Source: a virus
Strand: one strand, 5' to 3'
DNA length: 23,431 bases
Virus record (IMG/VR): IMGVR_UViG_3300020061_000026
Location: 1 to 23,431 of that record
Shown here: positions 662 through 14,346 of the stretch, piece after piece
How positions within the stretch are numbered: the first letter of the stretch is position 1
Layout: each line of letters opens with the position of its first letter
Notes under the pieces: model-generated
The model's database searches: none
Seen by the model: only the letters and a program-made list of their open reading frames with translations
Told to the model about the DNA's origin: nothing
Made by a program: the position numbers and the translations under genes

Positions 662-743
662 CGACTGCGGGCACGGAGAACGCTCCTGCCTCTGCGACAG
701 GTGCCTGTGCGAGTCCTGCGAGCGCGAGCTGGCCGATGACTGA
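642..743 (+). CDS. Candidate small Cys-rich protein between terS and terL
   Basis: This possible 33-residue protein starts at ATG 642 inside the end of terS and stops at 741-743, sharing ATGACTGA with the terL start. Its six Cys residues are arranged C-x7-C-x-C-x2-C-x-C-x2-C, with a His in the first spacer, which could bind a metal ion. Without it, 74 nt between terS and terL would be non-coding in an otherwise very tightly packed module, and its stop-start overlap would couple terL translation. Against it, I see no strong Shine-Dalgarno before 642 and it is very short. No function can be assigned. The Cys spacing is seen; that it is expressed is inference. Confidence 0.4.
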   Translation: MTSATSDDCGHGERSCLCDRCLCESCERELADD

Positions 744-3597
744 CCTCCTGGAGCAAGAAGTCCAGCAGGCCCCTCCGGGCTACTGGACCGACCTCCGGAC
801 CGGTGCTTGGTGCACGATCCCCTGGCCGACCGACCCCGGAGAGCGCCAACGCATCGCCGACAGCTCCCTCGGCCCTCTGATCATCCGGTGGGCGGAGAAC
901 CGGCTGACGCCGGAGGAGTTCGAGGAGTTCGGTCCTGGTCTGGTTCACCCGGACACGGGTGCCGACTGGCGCTTCACTCCCGGCCAGAAGAGGTTCTTGA
1001 TCCTCTGGTACTGGCACCAGCTCGACGCCAACGGCGAAGCCCGGTACGTCTACCGCCGAGGTGTGAAGCGCGGTGCCAAGGGGCCTATCGCCCACGGCAC
1101 TCCGGTGATGACTCCTGGCGGCTGGGTTAAGCACGGAGACCTCCGTGTCGGCTCTCAGGTCTACGCGGTGGACGGCTCGGTCACCACGGTGACGGCCCTT
1201 AAGCCAGAGGTCCTGGAGGACACCTACCGGATTACTTTCCGCGACGGAGCCTCGGTGGAATGCACCGGTACGCACCGCTGGCCGGTTGATGAGTTCACCG
1301 GAAGCAGCAAGCGGGTCCGCCGCATCGCCACCGTGGACGAGATGCTAGCTGCTGCTTCCGGTGACGACCGCGAGCTGACCACCGGCAAGACCAAGGCGTC
1401 CAAGGGCGGAGTCGCACGATTCCGCGCCCTGCCGACACCTGCTGTCGAGGGACAGAACGTGGACCTGGGGATGGACCCCTACGTCCTCGGCTACTGGCTC
1501 GGAGACGGTGATTCCGACGGTGCCCGCGTCACGGCACACACCGACGACATGGCCGCGCTGATCACCGAACTGAACGGCCTGGGCATCTCGCACGGGGAGC
1601 CATCGCCCACACACGGTGACACCTTCCGTATGGGCATCCATGGAGGGGTCAAGAAGGCCCTCCGTAACCTCGGAGTGCTGGGCAACAAGCACATCCCAGC
1701 CTCGGTGCTGCGATCTTCACTGGCGCAGCGCTGGGCGGTCCTTCAGGGCCTCGTCGACACCGATGGCACCGTCTCGCCGACGGGCCAGGTGGAGATCTGC
1801 ATCCTTGACAACCAGCTCGGTCACGACACTTTCGAGCTGGCCGTCTCGCTCGGCCTGATGCCGACGAAGAGCTACCGCAACGTCACCCTGGGCGGCAAGG
1901 AGTACGGACCATATGTCCGTATCCGGTTCACCCCGCAGCCCGGAGAGATTGTTTGCCGCCTGCCTCGAAAGCTGGCCCGGTGCAAGACCGAGACGAAGGC
2001 AATGCCCTTCTCCCGGAGCCGCACTATCACCGCGATCGAGAAGATCGATCCGACACCGGCTCGCTGCCTGACGGTGGCCCACCATGCCCACCAGTACCTG
2101 GTCGGCACACACAACGTTCCTACCTGCAACAGCGGCAAGGACCCCTTCGGTGGGGCTCATGGCAACTGTGAGCTTGCCGGTCCGACCCAGCTCGTCTTCG
2201 ACGAGGAGAAGGGCAAGTGGACCGGCCAGCAGCACCGCATGCCGCTGGTTCAGATCGCGGCCAACTCCGAGACCCAGTGCAAGAAGCTCCTGCGCGTGGC
2301 CAACAGCATGTGGTCGCGTGCCGCGCGCGAGTGGCACAACATCGAGACCGGCGAGACTCGGTCACTGCTCAAGGGCCGAGGCCGATTCGAGGTCCTGACC
2401 GCCTCCGAGGCTTCCGCCGAGGGTGACCCGGCGACCTTCATCATCTTGAACGAGAGCCATCACATGACCGCCACCTCTGGCGGCCACAAGGTGACCGACG
2501 TGGCCCGCCGCAACGTCGGCAAGTCGCCCAAGGAGATGCAGGCCCGCCTGGTCGAGTACACCAACGCCCACCAGATGGGTCAGGACTCGACCGCACAGAA
2601 GAGCTTCGAGTCCTGGCAGCAGCAGGTCTCCGGCCAGTTCCCGAACCTGCGCCACGACATCCTGTATGACTCGATCGAGGCCGACCCGAACCTCTCGGTA
2701 TTCGACACCGAGCAGCTGAAGCGGGCTCTGGCCCAGGCCTACTCCGACGCACCCTGGTACGACGAGGAGCGTCTGGAGGGCGAGGTCCTGGACCCCGCCA
2801 CCACGCTGGGTGAGTCGATCCGCTTCTACCTCAACGGTCTTGCCGTCCGAGAGGACGCCTGGATCGACCCCCGCAACTGGGACAAGCTTTACCGCGAGAC
2901 CGTGCTGGCCGACCGCGAGCAGATCGCGATGTTCCTGGACTGCTCGAAGTCCTCCGACGCCACCGGCCTGGTGGCCGTGAGGATCTCGGACGGTCACGTC
3001 TTCACCCTCGGTATCTGGCAGGCCCCCAAGGGTGGCCGAGGCAAGAACTGGCTGGCTCCTCGCAACGAGGTCGACGCCAAGGTCCGCGAGACCTTCGACC
3101 GATACAAGGTCATGTGGTTCGGAGTGGACCCCTCGCCTGCTCTCGACGACGACACCGAGGCTCTCTACTGGAAGCCGACGATCGACGCCTGGCACCGCGA
3201 TCTCCACCGCAAGGTGAAGCTCTGGGCGACACCAGGAGCCACGATCGGACACTCGGTGCTCTTCGACATGCGGCTCTCCCAGAAGGGCGCTTACGAGCGC
3301 AACAAGGACTTCACCGAGATGGCCGAACAGGTGGCCATCTGGATCGACGAAGAAGGATCGATCACCCACGACGGTGATCCTGCCCTTCGCCTCCACGTCC
3401 ACAACGCCCGCAAGTACTCCGTCAAGTGGGGCACCTCGCTGGGTAAGGAATCGCGCGACTCCAAGAAGCACGTGGACCTCGCCGTCTGCATGGTCGGAGC
3501 CCAGTTGGGTCGCCGACTCGTCCTGAACAACACCAAGATCCGCACCGGCACCCGCACCGGTCGCGTCACATCAGGAAGGGAGACCTACGTCCCGTGA
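736..3597 (+). CDS. terL: Terminase large subunit precursor interrupted by an intein
   Basis: The 953-residue precursor contains a large terminase, the ATPase-nuclease that drives genome packaging at the portal. Residues 117-465 are an intein. Removing it leaves 604 residues, a normal size. Splicing rebuilds a P-loop with the residues GAKGSGKD, the Walker A region; its last position is Asp where Ser or Thr is usual. A Walker B-like stretch FIILNESHH follows near 568-576, with E573 the likely catalytic carboxylate. The C-terminal RuvC-like nuclease shows D735 in MFLDCSKSSDATGLV, D798 in WFGVDPS and D914 in HVDLAV. The ATG at 736 lies inside the end of the upstream Cys-rich ORF and has only weak ribosome-binding sequence, so coupling is likely. 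Its stop overlaps the portal start (GTGA). Packaging should depend on splicing, because the ATP site is split. Confidence 0.95.
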   Translation: MTDLLEQEVQQAPPGYWTDLRTGAWCTIPWPTDPGERQRIADSSLGPLIIRWAENRLTPEEFEEFGPGLVHPDTGADWRFTPGQKRFLILWYWHQLDANGEARYVYRRGVKRGAKGPIAHGTPVMTPGGWVKHGDLRVGSQVYAVDGSVTTVTALKPEVLEDTYRITFRDGASVECTGTHRWPVDEFTGSSKRVRRIATVDEMLAAASGDDRELTTGKTKASKGGVARFRALPTPAVEGQNVDLGMDPYVLGYWLGDGDSDGARVTAHTDDMAALITELNGLGISHGEPSPTHGDTFRMGIHGGVKKALRNLGVLGNKHIPASVLRSSLAQRWAVLQGLVDTDGTVSPTGQVEICILDNQLGHDTFELAVSLGLMPTKSYRNVTLGGKEYGPYVRIRFTPQPGEIVCRLPRKLARCKTETKAMPFSRSRTITAIEKIDPTPARCLTVAHHAHQYLVGTHNVPTCNSGKDPFGGAHGNCELAGPTQLVFDEEKGKWTGQQHRMPLVQIAANSETQCKKLLRVANSMWSRAAREWHNIETGETRSLLKGRGRFEVLTASEASAEGDPATFIILNESHHMTATSGGHKVTDVARRNVGKSPKEMQARLVEYTNAHQMGQDSTAQKSFESWQQQVSGQFPNLRHDILYDSIEADPNLSVFDTEQLKRALAQAYSDAPWYDEERLEGEVLDPATTLGESIRFYLNGLAVREDAWIDPRNWDKLYRETVLADREQIAMFLDCSKSSDATGLVAVRISDGHVFTLGIWQAPKGGRGKNWLAPRNEVDAKVRETFDRYKVMWFGVDPSPALDDDTEALYWKPTIDAWHRDLHRKVKLWATPGATIGHSVLFDMRLSQKGAYERNKDFTEMAEQVAIWIDEEGSITHDGDPALRLHVHNARKYSVKWGTSLGKESRDSKKHVDLAVCMVGAQLGRRLVLNNTKIRTGTRTGRVTSGRETYVP
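1084..2130 (+). mobile_element. Class 3-like intein with LAGLIDADG endonuclease, in TerL
   Basis: This in-frame insert of 349 residues (TerL 117-465) lies between GAKG and SGKD. It opens PIAHGTPVMTPGGW, which matches intein block A except that Pro stands where Cys or Ser is expected. Block B has T177, H180 and W182 (TGTHRW). Two LAGLIDADG motifs, YWLGDGD (253-259) and LQGLVDTDG (336-344), both keep their acidic residues, so the homing endonuclease looks intact. Block F is RCLTV with C444. Block G is VPTCN followed by Ser466. Missing residue 1 nucleophile plus Trp182, Cys444 and Thr463 is the signature described for class 3 inteins, which use the block F Cys as first nucleophile. The usual penultimate His is Cys464. 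The insertion site in the ATP-binding loop is typical of intein homing sites. Confidence 0.92.
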
Positions 3598-5879: not shown

Positions 5880-6377
5880 ATGACTGTGTCTGACAACCAG
5901 GTTGATGCCGAGGTCACCGAAACGGAGACCGAGGACACCACGGAACAGCAGCCCAAGCCGACCGAGACGGTCGAGTTCTGGAAGGAAATCGCCCAGAAGC
6001 AGGAGAAGCGGGCCAAGGAAAACTCTGCGGCAGCTAAGAAGCTGGCGGAGTTGGAAGAGGCCCAAAAGTCGGACGCCGAAAAGGCTACCGACCGAATCAC
6101 CAAGGCCGAGACGGAAGCTGCCTCAGTTCCCGCCAAGGTCGCCGAGGCGCTCAAGACACATCTGGTTGAGCTTCATGGCATCGATTCCGAAGACGCTGAA
6201 CTGTTTCTGACCGCAGGCGAGCCCGATCTGCTGATCAAGCAAGTGACCCGGCTCCTCTTCCAGTCGGACACCAAGCGACGTAGCAAGAACAACTCCGTTC
6301 CCCGCGAGGGAAATAACCCCACTGCCGCAACAGGCGACCTGCGTGAGTTCACGCAGGGGCTCTTCGGCAGCAAGTAA
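5880..6377 (+). CDS. Capsid scaffolding protein
   Basis: This 165-residue protein sits directly before the major capsid gene, the usual place of the scaffold that guides procapsid assembly and then leaves. It looks like one: an acidic, Thr/Glu-rich N-terminus (1-30), a Lys/Glu/Ala-rich stretch at about 33-90 with strong coiled-coil character, and a basic segment KRRSKNN near 132-138 followed by a short tail ending LFGSK. Scaffolds commonly use a basic C-terminal region to contact the shell. The ATG at 5880 is supported by GGGAGA nine bases upstream. No protease motif is seen, so if the scaffold is removed by cleavage the enzyme is not evident here. Confidence 0.85.
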   Translation: MTVSDNQVDAEVTETETEDTTEQQPKPTETVEFWKEIAQKQEKRAKENSAAAKKLAELEEAQKSDAEKATDRITKAETEAASVPAKVAEALKTHLVELHGIDSEDAELFLTAGEPDLLIKQVTRLLFQSDTKRRSKNNSVPREGNNPTAATGDLREFTQGLFGSK

Positions 6378-8940: not shown

Positions 8941-9525
8941 ATGGCCGCAGATGACAAGAACATTTATGCTGCAGAGCCGCTCGCAACCGGATCGTGCCTC
9001 GTCGCACCTCTGGGAACGCCCGGTCCGACCAGCGCCACCTCCGCCCTCAACGTCGCCTTCATCGACCTGGGCAACATCGGCGAGGATGGCTTCACCGAGA
9101 CCACGGATCGCTCCGTGGACAAGAAGAAGAACTTCGGCGGTCGTACCGTCAAGATCCTTCAGACGGACTACACGCACACCTTCAGCTTCGTGCTGTTGGA
9201 GTCGCTGAACGCCGACGTGCTCAAGGCCGTTTACGGCGAAGACAACGTCACCGTGACACCCGCCAACGGCTCTCACGGTGCGCAGGTTGCGATCAAGAAG
9301 AACTCCAAGAAGCTGCCTCGTCAGTCGTGGGTCATCGACACCACTGACTCGGAGCTGGATGCCTTCTACCGCAACTACATCCCCGAGGGCCAGATCATCA
9401 CCGTCGGAGACGTCGTGGTCGTTCACACCGACACGATCATGTACGAGGTCGAGATGGAAGCCTTCGCCGACGCGAGTGGCAACCACGTCTACACCTACAC
9501 CGACGACGGCCAGCTCGGCTCGTAA
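8941..9525 (+). CDS. Major tail (tube) protein
   Basis: This 194-residue protein is likely the tail tube subunit, which stacks in hexameric rings around the tape measure. Support comes from its place between the tail terminator and the chaperone genes, its isolated, strongly signalled start (AAGGAG at 8927-8932, 8-nt spacer), and a beta-rich sequence with family-like segments: DGFTETTDRSVDKKKNFGG (about 50-68), TFSFVLLESLNADVLKAVYG (80-99), and a C-terminal MYEVEMEAFADASGNHVYTY. No extra Ig-like C-terminal domain is present. RNA hairpins sit on both sides, fitting a very abundant product. Confidence 0.9.
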   Translation: MAADDKNIYAAEPLATGSCLVAPLGTPGPTSATSALNVAFIDLGNIGEDGFTETTDRSVDKKKNFGGRTVKILQTDYTHTFSFVLLESLNADVLKAVYGEDNVTVTPANGSHGAQVAIKKNSKKLPRQSWVIDTTDSELDAFYRNYIPEGQIITVGDVVVVHTDTIMYEVEMEAFADASGNHVYTYTDDGQLGS

Positions 9526-9627: not shown

Positions 9628-9984
9628 ATGACCTTCCAGTACACCGTCGAGGATCTGGCCAGCGAGAGTGGCGACGGAACCGAGGAGTTCACGTTCGACC
9701 TGCGTGATGTCGCCGACATCCCCGTCGGCATCCTGCGCCAAAACCGCCGCAACCAGGAGAACCAGATGTGGGCGGTCTTCGAATGGGGTGTTCCCGTCGA
9801 GCAAATGGACGCCTTCGACAGGCTCACCTCCCTTCAGGTCGGCGACGTGTTCGCAGCCTGGAAGGCGTCGCCCTCGGAGCCGAAGCAGGTCGACCAGGAC
9901 AAGCCCGTCGGCCCTCCGCCAACGCCGAAGTCCAAGAAGGCCGTTGCCGTCGAGCCCGATCCCGAGCCTGTCACCGACGAGTAA
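9628..9984 (+). CDS. Tail assembly chaperone 1 (G-like)
   Basis: This 118-residue protein matches the G-type tail assembly chaperone, which helps tube subunits polymerise around the tape measure. The core is at about 27-80: DIPVGILRQNRRNQENQMW, then FEWGVPVEQMDAFDRL, then a Trp in FAAWKA. The C-terminus (80-118) is a disordered Pro/Lys/Glu tail. Normally such a gene is extended by programmed frameshifting into a downstream T frame. Here it ends at TAA 9982-9984 and the next ORF is in the same frame, so a simple -1 or +1 shift cannot join them. GAGAGG lies upstream of the ATG at 9628. Confidence 0.82.
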   Translation: MTFQYTVEDLASESGDGTEEFTFDLRDVADIPVGILRQNRRNQENQMWAVFEWGVPVEQMDAFDRLTSLQVGDVFAAWKASPSEPKQVDQDKPVGPPPTPKSKKAVAVEPDPEPVTDE

Positions 9985-9990
9985 CTCCTG

Positions 9991-10758
9991 ATGGGTCTCT
10001 TCGTCTCTGAGACCCTCCAGGGCACCGTCTCGTTGCCCATGCTGGACACAGTCCCAGAGGCGACCGTGAAGGCCGCCCTGAAGGCTCCAGAGGCCGAACG
10101 CGAATGGGTCTTGCTAGAGCTTCTGGCGCCACCCTCGTCACTGGACGTGATTGACCGGATGACGGTCGACTATCTCCGCCTCGTCATCAAGGACTGGGAA
10201 GTCGCCTCGGACATCTCGATCACCGATCTCATCCGCGTCGTCAGGATCATCGGGGTCCCCAAGCAGCGCGAGGCCATGGCCTCCGATCTCATCGGCAAGG
10301 GAATCCGCCTGCGCGACTTCCCCTCTGACCGGTGCAACTGGTCAGACCTGATGCTCATCATCAGGAACCTCGACGTCCACTCGGCGCTCTACATCCAGAC
10401 CTATCCCGACCGGGCGCACTGGGACCGGACGAACATGCTGCTCGCCAGCATCGACGACCGCCTGCATTGGCTGCAGTGGGCCAAGACCGCCAACGGGCGC
10501 AAGGGCCGCAACCGCCCGAAGCCGATCCCTCGTCCTGGATACATGACTGAGCAGCGCGAGGGCGCAAAGGTCAAGGCCGCACCGCTATCTGAGGTCAGGT
10601 CCAAGTTCGCCAAGCGTTACGCCACTGCCGCCAACGCAGCGATCGATCCCAAGAAGACGCTCACCGCCGGTCTTGGTCGACGCCTCCCCGTGCAACAGCC
10701 TCCGAAGGCCGTCGACCGAATCACCCAAATCGCCAACGCATTCCATGGAAGGAGGTGA
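9991..10758 (+). CDS. Tail assembly chaperone 2 (apparent G-T fusion)
   Basis: This 255-residue protein sits between the first chaperone and the tape measure. Residues about 20-75 resemble chaperone 1: VP near the start, EREWVLLELLAPP, LDVIDRMT, then a Trp in KDWEVAS. Residues about 78-180 look like a T domain: WSDLMLIIRNLDVHSALY, WDRTNMLLASIDDRLHWLQW, and RPKPIPRPGYM, a typical end of T-type chaperone cores. The ATG at 9991 is six nucleotides after the TAA of chaperone 1, in the same frame, with no Shine-Dalgarno. Reinitiation or stop readthrough are the possible routes. The last codons form the tape measure ribosome binding site. The G-like assignment is by eye and needs a profile search. 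Confidence 0.75.
   Translation: MGLFVSETLQGTVSLPMLDTVPEATVKAALKAPEAEREWVLLELLAPPSSLDVIDRMTVDYLRLVIKDWEVASDISITDLIRVVRIIGVPKQREAMASDLIGKGIRLRDFPSDRCNWSDLMLIIRNLDVHSALYIQTYPDRAHWDRTNMLLASIDDRLHWLQWAKTANGRKGRNRPKPIPRPGYMTEQREGAKVKAAPLSEVRSKFAKRYATAANAAIDPKKTLTAGLGRRLPVQQPPKAVDRITQIANAFHGRR
10749..10758 (+). promoter_or_regulatory. Full-length Shine-Dalgarno of the tape measure gene
   Basis: AAGGAGGTGA matches ten bases of the anti-Shine-Dalgarno tail of 16S rRNA. The last three bases are the stop codon of chaperone 2. GTG 10762 follows after three bases; GGAGG is 6 nt from the start. It fixes the tape measure start. Confidence 0.85.
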
Positions 10759-10761
10759 CCG

Positions 10762-13700
10762 GTGGCCACCGAACTCGCATCTGGATTCATCAACCTGACC
10801 GTCAAGTACGCCGACGGCATGAAGCAGATCGACTCCGACCTCCGGGGCCTCCAGGGCACTGCGACCAAGGCTGGAACGAACGCCGGTAACGCTCTCTCCA
10901 CTTCTCTGACCCGCGCCGCCAAGATCGACTCCTCCGACGCCAAGCGGGCGTTGACCCCCTTCGAGGCTGCTGCTCGTCGTACCGGTACCGATGCCGGTCA
11001 GGAACTCGGCCAAGGCATCGTGCAGAGCGCACGCCGTGAGGTTCAGTCCAAGGGCGACAAGATCACCGAGGGCCTGGGCTCAGGCGCCAAGGGTGCTGGC
11101 GCGGAAGCCGGTGAAGGCTTCCTCTCCGGTATCGGTCCCGCCGTCGCGTCGTTGGGCACCAAGGCCGGTCCGATCGGTCTGGCCCTGTTGGCCACCGTCG
11201 GCATCGCTGCCGGTATCGGCGCTCTGCTGGCCAAGGAGGTCATGTCGGGCTTCGAGCGCGACATGGCCAACCGCAAGCTCCAGGTTCAGCTGGGCATCGA
11301 TGACAGCCAGATGGCATCGGTCAACCAGGCCATCAACAACGCCTACAAGAACAACTTTGGCGAGTCTGTCGACTCCCTGCGCGAGGACGCCGCCTCGATC
11401 ATCAAGAACGGCCTGGTGCAGGCCAGCGACACCAAGGGTCTCCAGGCAGCCTTGGAGAAGGTCGACACGACCGCTCAGGTGACCGGCCATGACGCCAGCG
11501 AGATCACCAACGCCGTTGGCACCCTGATCAAGTCGGGTGTGGTCAAGGACTACGCCCAGGGCCTGGACCTCATCGTCAAGGGCTCACAGGAGGGCCTCGA
11601 TGTCTCCGGTGACCTGATCGACACCCTGGTCGAGTACAGCGTCCAGTTCAAGAAGGTCGGCATCGACGGCCCGCAGGCGCTGGGTCTGATCAAGCAGCTG
11701 ATGGACGGTGGTGCTCGCAGCACAGACCTCGCTGCTGACGCAATCAAGGAGTTCTCGATCCGCGCCATCGACGGATCGAAGACGACCACCGATGCCTACG
11801 CCATGATCGGTGTCGACGCCGACACGATGGCCCAGAAGCTCGCTGCCGGTGGACCTGCCGCTACCGAGGCCTTCGACACGATCGTCACCAAGCTCAACGC
11901 CATCCAAGACCCCGTCAAGCGCAACGCTGCCGGTGTGGCCCTGTTCGGCACGCAGTGGGAAGACCTCGGCGCGGCCATGAACAAGCTGGACCCGGCGCAC
12001 GCCCGTGACGCCATCGGCCAGGTCGAAGGTGCGGTGCAGAAGGCCAGCGACACCCTCGGTGGTGGCGCACTCGGTGGCTTCGAGTCTCTGGGTCGCACCT
12101 TCGAAGTCCTTCGGGGACAGTTCCAGGACTTCCTGGCCAACGCCTTCGGTCCCATGGCGCAGCAGATCTCGACGTGGATCACCCAGAACTTGCCGCAGAT
12201 CATCCAGTTCTTCACCGATCTGGCGTCGGCGGCGATCACCGGCACCGACGGCATCCTCGGCTTCTTCCAGTTCACGATGAAGTGGGGCGGCAAGTGGCAA
12301 GAGTTCATGGCCAACACGCTCGGCGAGGTCATCAAGCAGATCTCCCAATTCGCCAAGACCGCAGGCGAACTGCTCAAGTTCGTCCCCGGCATGCAGGACG
12401 AGGCCGAGGCGCTGATCAAGGTCGGCCAGGGCGGTATGGACCTGGTGGACGGCTGGCGCAACGGTGCCAAGAACATGCAGGGCTGGTCTGACAACATCGG
12501 TACTGTCCGTGAGGGTTTGCGCGGAGTGCGTGACGACGTCAACGCTGCCGGAACCAGCATGGCCAATGCCACTGCCAACACCCAACTGTTGGCCACCGGG
12601 ATCAATACGCTGCCCGACGGCCAGATCGTCCTGAAGGACAACACCCCTGAGGCGATCAAGCGAGTCGAGGACCTGGGTTACACGGTCACACACCTCCCCG
12701 ACGGCAACCTCGCCATCAAGGTCGTCTACAAGGACCAGAACGGCCAGCCGATCGACCCGAGCCAGTTGGGTGTCTCGCAGCGCCAGCAGTCCGCCGCTGC
12801 TGGCAACGAGGGCCCCAAGCCCCACTTCGCCCGAGGCACAGGGGCAATCAAGGGGCCTGGCAGCGGCACCTCCGACTCGATCCTGGCCTGGCTGTCCAAC
12901 GGTGAGGGCGTCGTCACCGCCCAGGGCATGGCCAGCGGTGGAGCGCCTCTAGTCGCTGCGCTGAATGCCGGTTGGGTTCCGCCTGCCGCACTTCTGCACT
13001 CGATGCTCCCTGGCTTCGCCGATGGCGGACCTGTCGAGAAGTTGTACAGCGTCGCCAGCTCTCTGGTCGGCACTCCTTACCAGCGCGGCGGTCACGGTCA
13101 GAACGGTTTGGACTGCTCGGGCGCTGCCTCGGTGCTCGTCAATGCGCTGCTCGGCCTGGACCCCTACGGCGACCGCATGGCCACCGCCAACGCAGCAGAT
13201 TGGCTCGCCGCCAAGGGTGCGATCTCGGGCAAGGGTCCTGCAGGCACGATGCGGATTGGCTGGAAGAACGGTGGACCCGGCGGCGGACACATGGCCGTCA
13301 CGCTGCCCGACGGTCGCAACGCCGAATCCGGCGGCTCGGTAGGCGAGTTCACCATCGGTGGCGGTGCTGCCGGAGCCGATGATCCGCAGTTCACCAACCA
13401 GGCTTACCTCCCCTTCGACGCCGTCTTCCCCGATGGCTCTCCAAGCGGCGGCAGCAGCGGCTCGTCGCTGAACTACGGCACTGGTAGCTCCGGCGGTAGC
13501 TCCGGTGGTGGAGGCGGTGGTGGAGGCGGAGCTGCCACCCAGCAGCAGCTGTCTGCCGCCCAGGACAAGATCACCGACCTAGAGAACAAGGTCCAGACCT
13601 CACAGCTGGCCCTCGACGAGGCCGAGAAGGACCCCAAGACCAAGGAATCGGCGCTAAAGGCCAAGAAGGACGCCGTCGACAAGAACAAGCGCGAGCTAGA

Positions 13701-14346
13701 CCAGGCCAAGCAGGACCTCGACACCCTGAAGGCCAAGACCGACGACAGCACTGGTGGCAGCAACTCTGACAACCCGTTCTCCCAGATCGGTTCTGGCGTC
13801 GGTCAGTTGGTCGACCTCGCCAAGGGTGGCATCAAGGAGACCTTCCTGCCTCCGGGCTTCAGTGACCCGGAGAGCTGGGGCATCACCAAGATGCTCTCGG
13901 GCCTGCTCGGCTTCGGTGGCGGTGTACTCGGTGGCCTGGGAGAGAAGAACGGTGACCCAGGACTCAAGACAGCTGGGGCGATCCTCGGAGCTGGTGGCCA
14001 GATCGCCGGTGGATCGACCGGTGATGGAGTCGCCTCCCTCATCAGCCTGATCCCGGCCCTGAGTGGTGCCAGCTCTGTCGCCCCTGGTGGCGACAACGCC
14101 CAGATCGTCGGCGAGAACACCGCGCACCCCGGCACTGGCGCTCTCCCTGGACCCGAGTCCCCCATGAGCGCCAACCCCGACCCCACCGGAGGCGGTGGAG
14201 GCGGAGGCACCACGACCGTCGACAACTCCACGCACATCGCTGAGGGCGGCCAGATCAACCAGGACGCCACCCAAGTCATGGAGGCGGCCAAGCGCCAGCA
14301 AGTCGCGCAGCAGACGCCTCAACTCGGAACTCGGAGGTTCGTCTAA
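10762..14346 (+). CDS. Tape measure protein with NlpC/P60-like domain
   Basis: At 1194 residues this is the longest spliced product, and it sets tail length. By the family rule of about 1.5 angstrom per residue it suggests a tail near 180 nm. The N-terminal part is Ala/Gly/Lys-rich and helical; a hydrophobic segment lies at about 137-157 (IGLALLATVGIAAGIGALLA). The motif ARGTGAIKGPGSGTSDSILA at 690-709 is typical of tape measures of this group. Residues about 759-890 resemble an NlpC/P60 cell-wall peptidase: C785 in LDCSGAA and H843 in GGGHMAV. A Gly/Ser linker is followed by a coiled coil (about 927-996) and a Gly-rich end. GTG 10762 is chosen for its perfect ribosome binding site. Its TAA is adjacent to the next ATG. 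Confidence 0.95.
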   Translation: MATELASGFINLTVKYADGMKQIDSDLRGLQGTATKAGTNAGNALSTSLTRAAKIDSSDAKRALTPFEAAARRTGTDAGQELGQGIVQSARREVQSKGDKITEGLGSGAKGAGAEAGEGFLSGIGPAVASLGTKAGPIGLALLATVGIAAGIGALLAKEVMSGFERDMANRKLQVQLGIDDSQMASVNQAINNAYKNNFGESVDSLREDAASIIKNGLVQASDTKGLQAALEKVDTTAQVTGHDASEITNAVGTLIKSGVVKDYAQGLDLIVKGSQEGLDVSGDLIDTLVEYSVQFKKVGIDGPQALGLIKQLMDGGARSTDLAADAIKEFSIRAIDGSKTTTDAYAMIGVDADTMAQKLAAGGPAATEAFDTIVTKLNAIQDPVKRNAAGVALFGTQWEDLGAAMNKLDPAHARDAIGQVEGAVQKASDTLGGGALGGFESLGRTFEVLRGQFQDFLANAFGPMAQQISTWITQNLPQIIQFFTDLASAAITGTDGILGFFQFTMKWGGKWQEFMANTLGEVIKQISQFAKTAGELLKFVPGMQDEAEALIKVGQGGMDLVDGWRNGAKNMQGWSDNIGTVREGLRGVRDDVNAAGTSMANATANTQLLATGINTLPDGQIVLKDNTPEAIKRVEDLGYTVTHLPDGNLAIKVVYKDQNGQPIDPSQLGVSQRQQSAAAGNEGPKPHFARGTGAIKGPGSGTSDSILAWLSNGEGVVTAQGMASGGAPLVAALNAGWVPPAALLHSMLPGFADGGPVEKLYSVASSLVGTPYQRGGHGQNGLDCSGAASVLVNALLGLDPYGDRMATANAADWLAAKGAISGKGPAGTMRIGWKNGGPGGGHMAVTLPDGRNAESGGSVGEFTIGGGAAGADDPQFTNQAYLPFDAVFPDGSPSGGSSGSSLNYGTGSSGGSSGGGGGGGGGAATQQQLSAAQDKITDLENKVQTSQLALDEAEKDPKTKESALKAKKDAVDKNKRELDQAKQDLDTLKAKTDDSTGGSNSDNPFSQIGSGVGQLVDLAKGGIKETFLPPGFSDPESWGITKMLSGLLGFGGGVLGGLGEKNGDPGLKTAGAILGAGGQIAGGSTGDGVASLISLIPALSGASSVAPGGDNAQIVGENTAHPGTGALPGPESPMSANPDPTGGGGGGGTTTVDNSTHIAEGGQINQDATQVMEAAKRQQVAQQTPQLGTRRFV

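Follow-up and report, generated by a model that had tools for sequence, protein, structure and literature searches.

Programmed frameshifting between the tail assembly chaperone genes G and T, which in phage lambda gives a ratio of about 30:1, has been called widely conserved in long-tailed phages with the exception of T4 (review, PMC5009743). In the classical G/GT systems of actinobacteriophages, which belong to PHROG 1326, a single G gene yields G and, via a −1 frameshift at GGGGGAA, the longer GT. Examples are genes 13/14 of the Gordonia phage SummitAcademy, genes 13/14 of the Mycobacterium phage LilSpotty, and genes 11/12 of phiGD20-1. T4-like phages are reported to have a short chaperone gene and a second, long one that is fused (Vladimirov, Gautam and Davidson 2022, as related in PMC10885494), so a split design is already known in principle.

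The window analyzed here is the whole stretch of DNA under study, a virus record of 23.4 kb whose tail module follows the usual gene order (terminase, portal, capsid, connectors, tail tube, two chaperone ORFs, and tape measure). Both chaperone ORFs are located between the genes of the major tail protein and the tape measure protein. The upstream neighbor encoding the tail tube (8941–9525, plus strand; PHROG 117, E = 2.7e-52; Pfam PF25681) fixes their tail-module context; the downstream neighbor (10762–14346, plus strand) was assigned by the PHROG tape measure families and PF10145. Part of the tape measure protein also looks like a cell-wall peptidase (GTPYQRGGHGQNGLDCSGAASVLV), and its residues 669–1180 match PHROG 971, annotated as endolysin. 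Within the ORF of the terminase large subunit (736–3597), an intein-like insert sits close to the Walker A region (RGAKGPIAHGTPVMTPGGW ... GTHNVPTCNSGKDPFGG); homing endonuclease and LAGLIDADG matches fall under the Pfam cut-offs. The phage appears to be of the actinobacteria type, a label that rests on its relatives.

The first chaperone ORF (ORF1; 9628–9984, plus strand) extends from an ATG at 9628 to a TAA at 9982–9984 and encodes 118 amino acids. It was assigned as a short, G-like tail assembly chaperone from PHROG 1326, its relatives, the AlphaFold (AF2) model, and the slippery-site scan. Residues 5–80 match positions 44–118 of PHROG 1326 (tail assembly chaperone; E = 1.4e-7). The model (pLDDT 84.8) displays two strands (residues 2–11 and 18–26) and four helices (33–38, 43–54, 57–64, and 68–80). 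The C-terminal tail is charged and proline-rich, and ORF1 contains no slippery site.

The second ORF (ORF2; 9991–10758, plus strand) is read in one uninterrupted frame from an ATG at 9991 to a TGA ending at 10758. Its product of 255 amino acids was assigned as a long chaperone, a hard fusion of a G-type domain (G') with T, from PHROG 1326, the AF2 model, and BFVD. The PHROG 1326 match is unbroken, covering residues 11–208 and profile positions 58–258 (E = 1.2e-45). The G' domain comprises residues 1–81 (9991–10233, plus strand); when isolated, it still matches PHROG 1326 (E = 2.7e-5, positions 58–123) and PHROG 8595 (E = 0.0017). The T domain comprises residues 82–255 (10234–10755, plus strand), can be aligned to the T frames of classical relatives, and contains Pfam DUF5361 (residues 144–179, E = 2.5e-16). 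The model of ORF2 reached a pLDDT of 89.2, with N-terminal strands at residues 3–8 and 11–16 and helices at 23–30, 34–45, 48–55, and 59–73. Its top structural match in BFVD is the frameshifted long tail assembly chaperone of LilSpotty (E = 3.2e-16), and the short G of LilSpotty by itself can be superposed on ORF2 with 81 columns aligned at 2.4 Å. Foldseek searches against the PDB gave nothing significant for the model of either ORF.

The original prediction, made from the letters of the window, had placed both ORFs in the same frame, separated by TAA and six bases, and had stated that no single −1 or +1 shift could fuse them. Both statements are correct. The junction (9982–9993, plus strand) consists of the TAA of ORF1, the spacer CTCCTG, and the ATG of ORF2; beyond the ORF1 stop, the −1 frame stays open for 26 nt and the +1 frame for 7 nt, so that neither shift reaches T. 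The further claim that ORF2 holds its own G-like domain ahead of T was borne out as well, since the PHROG 1326 matches of the two ORFs overlap on the G positions. A profile–profile comparison (hhalign) of six ORF1 with six ORF2 proteins gave a probability of 88.6% (E = 2.6e-6, 62 columns), and the two proteins of the window alone were matched by BLASTP with E = 6e-4. As described above, both N-terminal domains are predicted to form two strands and four helices, and these are of similar length. With secondary structure and profile common to both, the objection that the domains might be structurally unlike falls away. The listed motifs fill aligned columns, namely IP/VP, W-x3-E, D-x2-DR-x-T (DAFDRLT in ORF1, DVIDRMT in ORF2), and a later Trp; only the "W-V" of the prediction has to be restricted to ORF2 (WVLLE), as ORF1 reads WAVFE. 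Judged by these sequence comparisons, the N-terminal domains are homologous, and their likeness exceeds chance. They do not resemble recent duplicates.

Scans of viral and genome contigs with single ORF1 and ORF2 sequences found no relatives, and relatives were located via the neighboring tail tube and portal genes and alignments. Five divergent contigs (L007, L008, L009, L010, and L012) carry the order G, G'-T, with 38–48% identity in ORF2, and ORF1 relatives were found in all five. The two ORFs share a frame in five of these six loci, counting the window; L009 differs. Two further loci, L054 (5863–6842) and L114 (3350–4261; L115 is identical), have the reversed order, in which the fused long chaperone comes first and the separate G second, followed by the tape measure gene. 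The G of L054 was recognized only by a profile built in this analysis. In this locus, the fusion begins at an ATG that overlaps the stop codon preceding it (TAATG), and the AGGAGA site of G is strong. A separate short gene and a long fusion gene without frameshift are thus present in eight loci, the window and seven non-redundant relatives. The G C-termini are charged and mostly acidic in the window (9880–9984), L007–L010, and L012; in L010, the tail is encoded by a run of GAGGAC-type repeats, Shine–Dalgarno-like codons just upstream of ORF2.

Classical frameshift loci are found in L011, L119/L120, and the named Gordonia and Mycobacterium phages. The tail tube protein of L011 is 72% identical to that of the window, the same level as for L010. 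The tail genes of L011 and L119 are equally close, yet both loci have kept the classical −1 frameshift at GGGGGAA. All six classical loci scanned have this heptamer toward the end of G; it is missing from all eight split loci. In the six classical loci, the −1 frame remains open for 362–473 nt past the G stop, whereas the shifted frames of the split loci close after 7–257 nt. Exceptions are L009, in which ORF2 itself occupies the +1 frame with no recognized slip site, and L054, in which the downstream −1 frame runs for 3866 nt and is apparently that of the tape measure gene. A hidden frameshift giving a short G' was also sought, but no X XXY YYZ site was found in any split GT; L054 contains one GGGTTTG heptamer in mid-domain. 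The programmed frameshift, which is usual but not universal for G/GT chaperones, was accordingly not found in the window. In the fused proteins of L007, L008, L009, and L012, a "GE" peptide occupies the position of the classical slippery codons and continues in frame into T, and this peptide may be read as a relic of the former slippery site.

In two overlapping samples of bacterial genomes, 15 of 395 from the class and 17 of 399 from the order contained a T-domain match; none was recognized as hard-fused, and G lay in a frame other than that of T in at least seven. Several hundred of the 50,697 known phage records had matches, and among the matches listed, all those spanning G and T were in two pieces, as for a frameshift.

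The origin of the two G domains was addressed with domain trees. The ORF1 G domains group with the classical G of L011, and the split T domains also fall on the L011 side (support 96/95). The G' domains of the window group instead join L057, L059, L002, L005, L006, and L039 (98/94), a grouping that also takes in Gordonia-type Gs. A single clade of ORF1 G and G' was rejected by the AU test both without (p = 0.0026) and with the reversed loci (p = 0.013). The G' domains of the two gene orders did not form one clade either (p = 0.021), which suggests two origins of the split arrangement; judged from these trees, phages of this group probably gave up the frameshift at least twice. The duplication of G assumed in the original prediction is not supported by this topology. 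If G had been duplicated in tandem and an indel had then fused one copy to T, the homology of the neighboring domains would be accounted for, and the "GE" peptide is what such an event could leave behind. The domain is moreover short (about 80 columns) with long branches, compatible with a fast-evolving duplicate. With the nearest relative of ORF1 G in L011 and G' in another G lineage, we nevertheless regard duplication as unlikely, and recruitment of a second G-type domain is favored, although the short domains and long branches make this a loose preference. In that case, a classical G/T unit would probably have acquired another G-type domain, joined to T in the same frame, and its slippery site would have disappeared.

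ORF1 could also be a diverged accessory protein with no role as a tape measure chaperone, leaving the chaperone work to ORF2 alone. Its conservation is lower than that of T, its C-terminal tail varies, and the frameshift site is missing. ORF1 was, however, kept beside G'-T in eight of eight split loci, and the ORF1 proteins tested retain the G family profile and the predicted secondary structure, which makes this reading improbable.

Still less credence is given to readthrough of the TAA at 9982–9984, a possibility raised in the original prediction, by which a G-G'-T fusion would arise and the same-frame layout would be functional recoding. In the window, L007, L008, L010, and L012, the ORFs are in one frame and the ORF1 stop is the only one that separates them, and in L007 no ATG is present at the expected place of ORF2. 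Against this, ORF2 comes with an N-terminal domain of its own and requires nothing from upstream, a GAGGAG in L007 lies six bases ahead of a CTG at 5979, and the stops of the split loci are mostly TAA, usually an efficient terminator. The different frame in L009 and the reversed order in L054 and L114 led us to reject readthrough as a general mechanism.

That a classical frameshift still operates, with ORF1 or the fusion being a sequencing or assembly artefact, is hardly conceivable: L011 and L119 do retain the classical arrangement, but this reading is refuted by independent loci, six of one order and two of the other (three of the six G, G'-T loci in IMG/VR records resembling isolate-genome prophages, by record number only), no slippery site is present, and most shifted frames hit early stops. 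The split arrangement in independent contigs is thus no sequencing error and sits among frameshifting relatives. Such relatives had been named as an objection in advance and do exist, but they likely show the ancestral state and therefore do not contradict the split.

With two complete genes, the G:GT ratio would be set at translation initiation, with abundant G and scarce GT. In the window, a predicted RNA hairpin (9986–10022, plus strand; stems of 7 and 5 bp in the 70-nt fold) holds the start codon of ORF2. Folding of the region from −30 to +40 gave −26.5 kcal/mol (dinucleotide z −2.12); among 16 gene starts of the window that were checked, ORF2 had the lowest local energy, and ORF1 was the most open. 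By energy, all eight split loci have a more stable fold at the GT start (−21.0 to −28.9 kcal/mol) than at the G start (−6.8 to −17.4 kcal/mol); by dinucleotide z-score, this holds for seven of the eight. In each G, G'-T locus, the GT start had the lowest energy among the tail genes compared, including the start of the tape measure gene, which is also a gene junction. Part of the contrast is composition, since ORF2 starts inside GC-rich coding sequence; the dinucleotide z-score is near 0 at two of the eight GT starts, and the opening energy favors G in only five of the six G, G'-T loci. Shine–Dalgarno strength was rejected as the source of the ratio, because G is stronger than GT in the window, L012, and L054 and weaker in L007, L008, and L010. 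In L007 (5949–6018), where the expected ATG of ORF2 is missing, the CTG is a possible start, and a GTG is present at 5988.

In the predicted folds, the ORF1 start is open, whereas that of ORF2 is held in a stable hairpin and is in some cases non-AUG or served by a weak ribosome-binding site; ribosomes would therefore start on ORF2 inefficiently for the most part, or by reinitiation, which is possible after the nearby ORF1 stop. Many G and few G'-T molecules would then coat the tape measure protein, and the T domain would recruit tail tube subunits, as is established for lambda. From the computed contrast between the starts and the family assignments, we infer chaperone function, protein ratio, and initiation control; for the role of T and the requirement for a ratio, we rely on lambda. 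We consider it likely that ORF1 and ORF2 are the short (G) and long (GT) chaperones, encoded as two complete genes whose ratio is set by initiation and not by −1 frameshifting. The wider proposal is put forward tentatively and may well fail in one of its parts: the frameshift would have been lost at least twice in actinobacterial siphophages and replaced by two genes with two specialized G domains, one of them recruited from a different chaperone lineage, the ratio being set by RNA structure around the initiation site of the long gene.

Among the recoding events of long-tailed phages, the G/GT frameshift is frequently ranked with the most conserved. A family using either design is a natural experiment on whether the frameshift is needed for the ratio or for the sharing of one G domain by G and GT, and with two different G domains present, one can test whether a specialized G part is required in the long chaperone. 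For annotators, it is a warning that two chaperone genes should not be forced into a frameshift join.

The closest likeness is to the classical actinobacteriophage G/GT of PHROG 1326, shared in position, G family domain, DUF5361 T domain, and predicted fold. The split loci differ in that G and G'-T each have a complete gene of their own, the G-type domains of the two are different, and the slippery site is missing. The likeness to gpG/gpGT of lambda is by analogy and concerns presumed roles only, with G coating the tape measure protein and T recruiting the tube protein. In the open-licence papers searched, no description was found of a split in two gene orders in actinobacteria-type siphophages with frameshifting relatives. 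The split loci resemble T4-like phages in having a short gene and a separate long fusion while the frameshift is absent. T4-like phages, however, are contractile-tailed myophages, whereas the present case belongs to an actinobacteria-type siphophage family, so that, judged by phage group, its split is very probably of separate origin.
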